Shown here piece after piece: positions 1 to 3,227 of a stretch of 23,371 nt of DNA. This DNA is from a virus. The stretch spans positions 1 to 23,371 of the IMG/VR virus record IMGVR_UViG_3300007735_000505; one strand, 5' to 3'. Position numbers and translations under genes: made by a program. Under the pieces are notes generated by a model that worked only from the letters and a program-made list of their open reading frames with translations, ran no database searches and was not told the origin of the DNA. Positions within the stretch are counted from its first letter, which is position 1, and the number at the start of each line of letters is the position of its first letter.

Positions 1-45
1 GTTCGAAATTACCTACGCCGCTACTTGAGAAAAGGACCCGTGCAA

Positions 46-200
46 TTGAGAATCAACTGAGCGCCTGAGAATGAGAATCATTCCCACCATCCGGGGCAAG
101 AATGAGAATCATTCTCAACTGTGCTGCAGCGGAATGAGAATCAGAATCATTCTCACCAGCGGGGGACGGGCTGCGGCCTGCAACTGCGACGCATTCTCAA
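46..200. promoter_or_regulatory. Cluster of Fur-box-like palindromes
   Basis: Three 7-1-7 palindromes of the form TGAGAATnATTCTCA lie at 72-86 (one mismatch), 103-117 (perfect) and 141-155 (one mismatch). Extra half-sites are at 46-52, 66-72, 135-141 and 193-199. The first and third sites are preceded by another GAGAAT hexamer, which gives the tandem-hexamer layout described for Fur boxes (GATAAT repeats). The cluster lies directly upstream of two candidate rightward -10 elements, at 203-208 and 244-249. Resemblance to Fur sites is seen in the sequence. Binding by a host Fur protein is an inference; a phage-encoded regulator or replication protein could use the same repeats. Confidence 0.6.
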
Positions 201-240: not shown

Positions 241-249
241 TGCTATAGT
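241..249 (+). promoter_or_regulatory. Candidate extended -10 promoter
   Basis: TGCTATAGT at 241-249 is an extended -10 (TGn followed by TATAGT, five of six matches to TATAAT). No good -35 lies 16-18 bases upstream, which the extended -10 could compensate for. Transcription would start near 256, inside the palindrome at 255-273, and read the 47-aa gene at 294. An alternative -10, TACAAT, lies at 203-208 just after the last Fur-like half-site. Confidence 0.45.
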
Positions 250-254
250 AACCG

Positions 255-273
255 TGTGAGCAATGTGCTCACA
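255..273. promoter_or_regulatory. Operator-like perfect inverted repeat
   Basis: TGTGAGCAATGTGCTCACA is an 8-bp perfect inverted repeat with a 3-base centre. It begins about six bases after the candidate -10 at 244-249, so it would cover the transcription start, the usual place for a repressor site. It resembles a CRP half-site pair (TGTGA/TCACA) but with a 9-base rather than 6-base spacer, so CRP binding is unlikely. Confidence 0.5.
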
Positions 274-293: not shown

Positions 294-437
294 ATGAAAT
301 TGTACACGATTCTCAAGGCTCAGCATGAAGAACTGGGTCGCAAGTTAGAAGAAGCAACTAGGCTCAACAATGCCCACATCGAAAGATGTAATCAGTTGCT
401 CGCAAAGTTAAAAAAATTAAACACCGTTGAAGTGTAA
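294..437 (+). CDS. Small coiled-coil protein, 47 aa
   Basis: Not recognised. ATG at 294 opens 47 codons ending in TAA at 435-437. The product is charged and helical, with leucines and alanines spaced as in a short coiled coil (roughly residues 5-43) and a lysine-rich C-terminal part. There is no clear Shine-Dalgarno before the ATG. The unit has its own candidate promoter and operator upstream and a rho-independent terminator seven bases after the stop, so it forms a one-gene rightward transcript facing the leftward block to its right. That packaging is the best evidence it is a gene. A small regulator or host-interaction peptide is possible but cannot be shown. Confidence 0.5.
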   Translation: MKLYTILKAQHEELGRKLEEATRLNNAHIERCNQLLAKLKKLNTVEV

Positions 438-443
438 ACATTT

Positions 444-468
444 GGGGGGCAATTGCTCCCCTTTTTTT
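444..468 (+). terminator. Rho-independent terminator after the 47-aa gene
   Basis: A GGGG...CCCC hairpin with the inner palindrome GCAATTGC is followed by seven T residues at 462-468. It lies just after the stop at 437 on the same strand. Confidence 0.75.
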
Positions 469-519: not shown

Positions 520-705
520 TCAGTCTGCGGTCAATACATCGCAGAGTGAGGAGAGCATGTCGCGATAGTCGTTCAACAGTTCGGCCGTTGTTTCTGACAT
601 AACACCGGCATTCAGATCACCGTCAACTTCGCCGATCTGGTGAGCGATCATCCGGAGCAGGCAGGCGATTTGCAGCGGTTCAAGCGTGACGGTTTTGCTA
701 CTCAT
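520..705 (-). CDS. Small acidic protein, 61 aa
   Basis: Not recognised. The frame is open further upstream, but the ATG at 705 overlaps the stop of the preceding 233-aa gene as ATGA and is the likely start. The 61-residue product begins MSSKTVTLEPLQIACLLRM and continues as an acidic, mostly helical protein with no cysteine cluster or membrane segment. It is the last gene before the minus-strand terminator at 476-499, so it is probably translated by coupling to the upstream gene. Confidence 0.65.
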   Translation of the reverse strand: MSSKTVTLEPLQIACLLRMIAHQIGEVDGDLNAGVMSETTAELLNDYRDMLSSLCDVLTAD

Positions 706-1403
706 TGCGCAGCCCCCGCAATGGCCGATTCGGCGCGGCGCTTGGCTGTGCCATGGGCGAGAAATGCGATGATGACCCGGCGGCCACGCTTGTGGCAGAG
801 TTGGCAATCGGCGCACGTTTTGGTGTCAGACCGTTGGGCGGGGCAAACTAGAACGCGATTCTTGGCGGCCGTTTGCCACGTGACGCGGCTCTCATCCGAT
901 GGCACAGTCAGCACGGCGGGCAGGCCGGACGCAATGGCAGAATCAGCGGCCGCTTCCGTTTCGGTGGAGACGTTAACGGTGAAGCCGTTACGGTTTGCTT
1001 GACGCAATAGCGAGAGATTCTCGCCGATTGCCAGACCGTGGTGCGTGTACGTGTAACCACGGCGGCCACGGTTTGCCGTGATGATCGCCCGCATGAATCG
1101 CCGGGAGATTTGGCCTGCAGTGTGCGGGAGATCGCCGGCCTGATTGTGCCGCCAGAGTTGACCGACTGGAAGCGCCGCAATATTGGCAAGGAAGCGGGCA
1201 AGCGGCTCACCACGATCGCCACGGGTGACCGCGTCCCAATGGTGCTTCATTGGGTAGTTGGCCGCGTAGCATCCCCCGCCGCGATTGAACGGGCAAGACG
1301 CGGGGCAGGTTACGGCGCTGGACGTGCTGACCGGGATCGGCCCGGTTTTGCTGTTTGTACTGACGCGTGATAGGTGAAAGCGCAGCGATGCGAGAGTTGG
1401 CAT
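702..1403 (-). CDS. Cysteine-rich phage protein (DUF7227-like), 233 aa
   Basis: The sequence resembles a family of unknown function, common in phages, that I recall as DUF7227; this was not searched. It carries two cysteine groups: C33, C37 and C45 near the N-terminus (CPASCPF followed by GGGCY), and C187, C197, C200 and C203 near the C-terminus (CxxCxxC). Between them lie GQLWRHNQAGDLP (about 81-93), NRGRRGYTYTHH (about 111-122) and a GFTVNVSTE strand. The cysteines suggest an Fe-S cluster or zinc sites, but no function is known to me. The ATG at 1403 lies 29 bases after the upstream gene, and the stop overlaps the next start as ATGA. GC content is visibly higher than in the 4-9 kb block. 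Confidence 0.8.
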   Translation of the reverse strand: MPTLASLRFHLSRVSTNSKTGPIPVSTSSAVTCPASCPFNRGGGCYAANYPMKHHWDAVTRGDRGEPLARFLANIAALPVGQLWRHNQAGDLPHTAGQISRRFMRAIITANRGRRGYTYTHHGLAIGENLSLLRQANRNGFTVNVSTETEAAADSAIASGLPAVLTVPSDESRVTWQTAAKNRVLVCPAQRSDTKTCADCQLCHKRGRRVIIAFLAHGTAKRRAESAIAGAAQ

Positions 1404-2815: not shown

Positions 2816-3106
2816 GAATGCTACCACCTATCGGTAGGCGGCAAGCGATGCGAGCCAGAATTTAGGCCGCTTTTGCAATCGGCACAGTGTGCGGCATGGT
2901 GCGCCGGTTCGATCCGTTGTGCATTGTCTGGCACGCGGCGGGCTGGGCAGGCTATGGGCTGAACCTAGGCAACGGTCGCGCCATTGCGCCCCATATATAA
3001 GGAGAACCGCCCCGATCAGCCGGGCGATTGTGCGGCAGGCATGCTGCGCCCGTTGCCGTTGACAATGAGTCGCAATTGCAGGATTGCCGGGAGCCGTGCG
3101 GTCCGC

Positions 3107-3120
3107 TGAGAATGATTCCC
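3107..3120. promoter_or_regulatory. Fur-box-like site, imperfect
   Basis: TGAGAATGATTCCC matches 13 of the first 14 positions of the palindrome TGAGAATnATTCTCA. It lies 58 bases left of the perfect copy at 3165. Confidence 0.45.
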
Positions 3121-3164
3121 GTTTTCACGTTTGACCGGGCGGCGCCACCCCGGCACCCCACAAT

Positions 3165-3179
3165 TGAGAATGATTCTCA
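3165..3179. promoter_or_regulatory. Fur-box-like site, perfect palindrome
   Basis: TGAGAATGATTCTCA is a perfect 7-1-7 palindrome with the same arms as the perfect site at 103-117. It lies at the edge of the repeat-rich segment 3190-3347. Confidence 0.55.
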
Positions 3180-3192
3180 TTTTTGCCTGTAC

Positions 3193-3227
3193 TAGTACAC
3201 CAGTACTACTTTTGAACAGGTGTACTA
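3193..3227. repeat. 9-bp inverted repeat
   Basis: TAGTACACC at 3193-3201 and GGTGTACTA at 3219-3227 are exact reverse complements separated by 17 bases that contain a further AGTACT. The left arm also overlaps the 10-bp palindrome GTACTAGTAC at 3189-3198. It could be a binding site for a dimeric or tetrameric protein. Confidence 0.5.

Follow-up and report, generated by a model that had tools for sequence, protein, structure and literature searches.

Two intergenic clusters of Fur-box-like palindromes, cluster A (47-199) and cluster B (3107-3179), were found in the window, i.e. the whole 23,371-base IMG/VR fragment that was analysed. Judged from the sequence, the two clusters are probably arrays of binding sites for the host Fur protein, which would control phage genes together with LexA in a cos siphophage of picocyanobacteria. 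The individual sites are very probably Fur-family operators read by a protein of the host. Part of cluster A had been described in the original prediction as three 7-1-7 palindromes centred at 79, 110 and 148 with additional half-sites. The palindromes were located at 72-86, 103-117 and 141-155, and half-sites at 47-53, 66-72, 135-141, 193-199 and 309-315. The sequence TGAGAATNATTCTCA is perfect at 103-117 and carries one mismatch each at 72-86 and 141-155. The second intergenic cluster, with sites at 3107-3121 and 3165-3179, had been overlooked.

The phage and its genome end

The window carries the gene set of a lambda-like siphophage, including genes for TipJ, tail assembly, endolysin, dCTP deaminase, exonuclease, RusA and a minor tail protein, and Rfam and tRNA scans of the window returned no matches. 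Two complete relatives, G003 (38,804) and G052 (38,903), show GGTAATTTCGAAC at both their start and their end, and in contig L016 adapter-like sequence follows directly after GGTAATTTCGAAC. Bases 1-13 of the window are the reverse complement of the same sequence, thus identifying base 1 as the cos end. A short element kept just before this end in the relatives, GGGTCCTTT, is presumably the counterpart of lambda cosQ. The genomes have the fixed cohesive ends of lambda-like cos phages, and the terS gene starts about 170 bp past GGTAATTTCGAAC. On the circular genome, cluster A is placed between the end of the gene block holding the DUF7227 (GP88-like) gene and the terminase small subunit, and cluster B between the minor tail gene and the same DUF7227 block. 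The coordinates of the features are collected in Table 1.

The isolates that matched one early gene were all cyanophages (14/14), and those that matched another gene were all Synechococcus phages (5/5). Synechococcus phages also provided the best matches to the endolysin, Prochlorococcus siphophages were nearest for TipJ, and TerL matched S-CBS3 over its full length. These gene matches place the lambda-like cos siphophage among the phages of Synechococcus-type picocyanobacteria.

The DUF7227 protein shows six cysteines (C33, C37, C45, C197, C200 and C203) that are invariant in the alignment of the window with its relatives. Its structural model is TIM-barrel-like, with Z about 5 with mixed barrels, and the cysteine loop is predicted at low confidence. 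An assignment as iron-sulphur or radical-SAM enzyme was considered and kept out of the evidence.

Table 1. Positions of the features in the window, with the phi92 sites in the last line.
Feature	Position	Strand	Remark
cos overhang	1..13	-	reads GGTAATTTCGAAC on the minus strand; right physical end of the genome
cosQ-like element	31..39	-	GGGTCCTTT; conserved in relatives immediately ahead of cos
Fur-like half-site, cluster A	47..53	+	TGAGAAT
Extended Fur-box-like site, cluster A	66..86	+	TGAGAATGAGAATCATTCCCA
Extended Fur-box-like site, cluster A	97..117	+	CAAGAATGAGAATCATTCTCA; perfect core 103-117
Extended Fur-box-like site, cluster A	135..155	+	TGAGAATCAGAATCATTCTCA; core 141-155
Degenerate site, cluster A	185..199	+	includes half-site ATTCTCA 193-199
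Possible -10 of small rightward gene	244..249	+	TGc TATAGT; by eye
Perfect inverted repeat near presumed transcript start	255..273	+	TGTGAGCAATGTGCTCACA
Small ORF	294..437	+	47 aa, without known family
Terminator-like hairpin	444..463	+	3' of small ORF
DUF7227 (GP88-like) gene	702..1403	-	Pfam PF23872, E 9e-81; block downstream of cluster B
Conserved -10-like element	2994..2999	-	TATATA; downstream of cluster B
Fur-box-like site, cluster B	3107..3121	-	2 mismatches; TATATA 122 bp downstream
Fur-box-like site, cluster B	3165..3179	-	perfect; TATATA 180 bp downstream
Cyanobacterial LexA box beside cluster B	3194..3207	.	AGTACACCAGTACT; fits RGTACNNNDGTWCB
phi92 15-mers (FR775895)	79, 274, 136993-137100, 147409, 147467, 148348, 148543		

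Two conserved intergenic clusters

Allowing up to three mismatches, nine palindrome matches were counted in the window against 0.98 +/- 0.86 in shuffled sequences, and none of 100 shuffles reached nine. A control pattern obtained by reading the motif backwards gave no matches in the window. All seven TGAGAAT heptamers of the window fall inside the two intergenic clusters, and no sites with up to two mismatches were detected outside the clusters in the near-complete G003, G009 and G010 or in the complete G052. A genome-wide or purely coding distribution of the motif and its absence from related phages had been named in advance as outcomes adverse to the prediction; the sites proved to be intergenic, confined to two gene-start regions and kept by relatives.

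Cluster B is retained in all of the 12 related contigs, and cluster A sites in eight of the 12 that reach cos, the remaining four (L006, L007, L009 and L014) having cos and no cluster A sites. Contigs L006-L015, whose DUF7227 proteins are 69-86% identical, all carry cluster B, as does G052. Counting against the reading as host Fur arrays, sites are absent from the isolated cyanophages S-CBS3, MED4-117, S-H1 and P-HS2 and from the close relatives L016-L018.

The spacing of the sites varies among the relatives (26, 37, 40, 46-47, 59 and 66-67 bp) and the DNA between them cannot be aligned, the sites themselves being near identical. The 31 non-redundant sites contain 1.5-2 bits at most core positions and about zero beyond the extended site. 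Near-invariant sites separated by diverging spacers point to selection on the sites and turnover of the rest.

Similarity of the sites to Fur boxes

The sites have the palindrome and the third hexamer of a Fur box. The 7-1-7 palindrome TGANAATNATTNTCA is perfect at 103-117 and 3165-3179 and recurs in the 31 non-redundant sites of the relatives. In most sites the core is preceded by a third overlapping hexamer, GA(A/T/G)AAT, giving the F-F-x-R arrangement of about 19-21 bp, and the aligned sites take the three-hexamer form GA(A/T/G)AAT-GAGAAT-C-ATTCTC. The likeness of the GAGAAT hexamers to the Fur box, proposed from the window only, held in every sequence test that was available, the third hexamer included. 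The extra hexamer is on the opposite side in the window's cluster A, which gives the two arrays divergent orientations.

The phage sites are identical or near-identical to the published Fur boxes of Xanthomonas campestris (AATGAgAATcATTctCATT, PMC1790865) and E. faecalis (TGAGAATGATTCTCA, PMC6056675). Compared with the published E. coli box (GATAATGATAATCATTATC), the sites bearing GATAAT agree with the 19-mer consensus at 17 of 19 positions. The literature on the picocyanobacterial Fur box yielded a single cyanobacterial consensus, that of Halothece (ATTGAAAATTATTTT[T/C]AAT), and otherwise only general statements; an A in this consensus takes the place of the G of the phage core, a difference that counts against the Fur reading. 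A profile search of genome contigs with the DUF7227 alignment returned no cyanobacterium, PsaA/PsaB being present in none of its 14 genomes. The cyanobacterial Zur box (NTNANAATGATNATCATTNTNAN, PMC9337993) was also compared and rejected, as the phage arm read from the centre is ATTCTCA and the Zur arm ATCATT.

A blind search was carried out with one phage site, a 30-bp piece of L015, as query against 72,556 plasmids, and 830 records, mostly from Escherichia, were matched. The E. coli plasmid match that was examined reads TTGATAATGAGAATCATTATT and is located 46 bp before iucA, the aerobactin gene whose control by Fur is textbook knowledge. A Paenibacillus match precedes the gene for an iron-hydroxamate binding protein of a transporter, and matches in Burkholderia and Photobacterium came without annotation to judge by. 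Such short matches have weak E-values (about 5), and they carry weight because of the genes downstream of them.

Promoter geometry and LexA boxes at cluster B

In five relatives (L007, L008, L009, L013 and L014) the last Fur box begins exactly 29 bp before the conserved TATATA. A box in this position would cover the presumed -35 element, as expected of a repressor site. The cluster B boxes of the window are farther upstream, at -180 and -122 from the presumed -10 and not over it, which counts against the model.

Cluster B also holds LexA boxes. The pattern RGTACNNNDGTWCB is enriched in cluster B of most relatives, with 0.0-0.3 occurrences expected per genome, and the relatives show AGTACAAATGTACT, GGTACAAATGTACT and AGTACGTTTGTACT. 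These boxes are identical or nearly so to those of the lexA and recA genes of Synechococcus and Prochlorococcus (GGTACAAATGTATT and CGTACGTTTGTACT, PMC3091678). G052 has Fur boxes in both places and one LexA box. Separately, most relatives carry AAGTTCTTGCRRGGKRTCGGTTTA as three to four direct repeats downstream of the minor tail gene (L007:3604-3701, L012:3522-3613).

Cluster A and the small gene

The palindromes of cluster A had been proposed to precede a one-gene transcript. A small rightward ORF followed by a terminator-like hairpin is indeed present; its connection to the sites was not borne out. Cluster A occurs without such a gene in L008, L010, L012 and L015, and the gene occurs without cluster A in L007, L009 and L014, so that a link between the two was rejected. 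The -10 candidate of this gene was not recovered by a consensus scan. Hairpins with AATG-type loops follow both -10-like elements, at 255-273 (TGTGAGCAATGTGCTCACA) and 2975-2992 (GGTCGCaatgGCGACC in relatives) of the window, and are possibly 5' end structures.

Source of the DNA-binding protein

A phage-encoded mimic of Fur had been suggested as one possible binder, and this suggestion has to be dropped: the search for Fur-family proteins, which detected them in all 14 control genomes, gave none in the 15 relatives and 45 other array-bearing phage records (60 phage records overall). Moreover, no gene is common to the motif-bearing relatives and missing from the motif-free ones (G011 and G013). 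A membrane-HTH gene adjoining cluster B was examined as cognate regulator and rejected, since it is missing from the window and present in the motif-free G011 and G013. The lack of both a phage Fur protein and a phage gene that tracks the motif indicates the host as the probable source of the binder. The protein is likely host Fur, as the form of the sites suggests, and it could be another Fur-family member such as PerR.

Neither an S24-type repressor nor an HTH_3 match over the cut-off was detected in G052 or in the other family records searched. G052 encodes a tyrosine integrase (C1:23299-24159) between its tail and endolysin genes. Taken together, the integrase and the lack of these two repressor types would be in keeping with a temperate phage relying on repressors of its host.

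Proposed control of the phage genes

Host Fur loaded with iron, joined by host LexA at cluster B, would occupy the boxes and restrain the block of genes that includes DUF7227. Fur bound near cos would hold back, across cos, the start of terminase and late expression. The restraint would be lifted when iron is lost or when DNA damage acts through LexA, and the phage would thus use the stress sensors of its host instead of a repressor of its own. The least secure part of this model is how cluster A would act on late genes.

Iron is limiting for cyanobacteria across much of the ocean, and their turnover is shaped by phages. If the phage reads iron status through host Fur, infection would be coupled to iron supply. 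The model also suggests that temperate phages without their own repressor can lean on host LexA and Fur.

Arrays in other phages and alternative explanations

A search of 2.9 million viral contigs retrieved pairs of GAGAATNATTCTC separated by 8-38 bp from 48 stretches (G+C 0.29 to 0.67). Pairs with permuted arms gave 0 and 11 stretches, the 11 belonging to a single lineage with fixed spacing, and GATAATNATTATC pairs occurred in 13 stretches of the viral contigs. DUF7227 genes were located near 14 of the 48 array stretches and near none of 24 other loci, in a count that includes related phages. One terminase type is accompanied by GAGAAT arrays in two contigs and by GATAAT arrays in several others. 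Among isolates, boxes occur in gene-free gaps of Microcystis phage Mic1, coliphage phi92, a T5-like phage and Klebsiella jumbo phages. Since unrelated phages have such arrays too, exploiting a conserved host regulator may be a general strategy. It is conceivable, and on balance doubtful, that unrelated cyanobacterial, aquatic and enterobacterial phages have independently gained Fur boxes in tandem arrays, frequently close to genome ends or to terminase or DUF7227 genes, as an iron-status switch or a Fur sink, with host Fur and LexA replacing the phage repressor in the present family, even in the temperate G052.

Several further arrays were recorded on the way. Fur-box-like sites in both spellings occur in T5-like Salmonella phages (L209:1968-2513 and L213:1126-1913), in the large gene-free gap of a T5-like phage, and in a record related to a T5-like phage the matching stretch is annotated as resembling the T5 DNA injection stop signal. 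The Klebsiella jumbo phages RaK2 (L207) and Muenster (L214) have a similar array, which in Muenster lies about 800 bp from the record end, inside a predicted terminal repeat. Eight copies of the motif, at spacings of 37-44 bp, are present in a viral contig of 96.8 kb (L160:6650-6934). Distant members of DUF7227 were also seen near Fur-like arrays in unrelated phages.

Arrays in gene-free gaps keep alive a different reading, in which the boxes act as a decoy: with multiplication of the phage genome, hundreds of boxes would titrate host Fur away from the iron-uptake promoters of the host, and the infected cell would keep importing iron. In phi92 (FR775895), seven perfect 15-mers TGA[GT]AATNATT[AC]TCA are confined to the terminal repeats and one array, and this mixed GATAAT/GAGAAT array occupies the gap between the convergent genes gp223 and gp224 with no obvious gene start; the array of the T5-like phage is placed likewise. 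Titration is also consistent with the several strong boxes per genome and with a cluster A that is not tied to the small gene. However, each genome carries only 5-7 boxes, Fur is usually present in many copies, and the exact 29-bp distance to the conserved -10 in five relatives would be needless for a decoy. We regard titration of host Fur, the main rival reading, as unlikely and control of phage genes as the more likely of the two.

The sites might instead be operators of a phage-encoded repressor and resemble Fur boxes by coincidence, as such repressors usually have tandem operators arrayed at two control regions and the motif is present in phages of many kinds. Against this stand the third hexamer, whose A, T and G variants are the three known Fur-box spellings, the two spellings found with one terminase type, the blind matches to Fur-controlled promoters and the lack of a phage gene that distinguishes motif-bearing from motif-free relatives, all of which make a coincidence quite improbable. 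Cluster A could also serve packaging, bound by terminase or a host protein beside cos as part of the DNA-end machinery rather than of transcription control. It is situated 50-200 bp from cos, adjoining the cosQ-like element, and arrays elsewhere are near ends too (the terminal repeats of phi92 and Muenster, the injection-stop region of the T5-like phage). The same sites are nevertheless repeated 3 kb away in cluster B, where they are better conserved, and four contigs (L006, L007, L009 and L014) have cos without them, leaving a packaging role very improbable. An origin by chance or as low-complexity repeat is refuted for practical purposes by the shuffles (0/100 attaining the observed count), the arm-permuted controls (0 and 11, one lineage, vs 48 stretches in the 2.9 million contigs) and the conservation of the sites in relatives.

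Comparison with known systems

The proposed control of phage genes through host Fur and LexA can be set beside several known systems. Host LexA is used for phage control by coliphage 186, CTXphi and GIL01. In these phages a host stress repressor serves as phage regulator, and the cyanophage likewise has LexA boxes; unlike them, it adds Fur-type boxes in the same region. The closest case on the side of iron is the stx1 promoter of Stx1-encoding phages, which contains a functional Fur box and is released at low iron via host Fur (PMC5552940). Both the Stx1 phages and the cyanophage place phage genes under Fur boxes, predicted ones in the latter. In the Stx1 phages the box serves one prophage cargo gene, whereas the cyanophage has whole arrays, placed at two control regions for blocks of its own genes; they are conserved across the phage family and are joined by LexA boxes.

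Bacterial operators provide the nearest matches in sequence. The phage site CACTGATAATGAGAATCATT aligns with CATTGATAATGAGAATCATT of the aerobactin (iucA) operator of E. coli plasmids, which belongs to a host iron-uptake operon, whereas the cyanophage sites belong to a phage. The Fur box of Xanthomonas campestris differs little in its letters from the phage core with its flanks; it comes from another host group, where it is associated with bacterial TonB-receptor genes.
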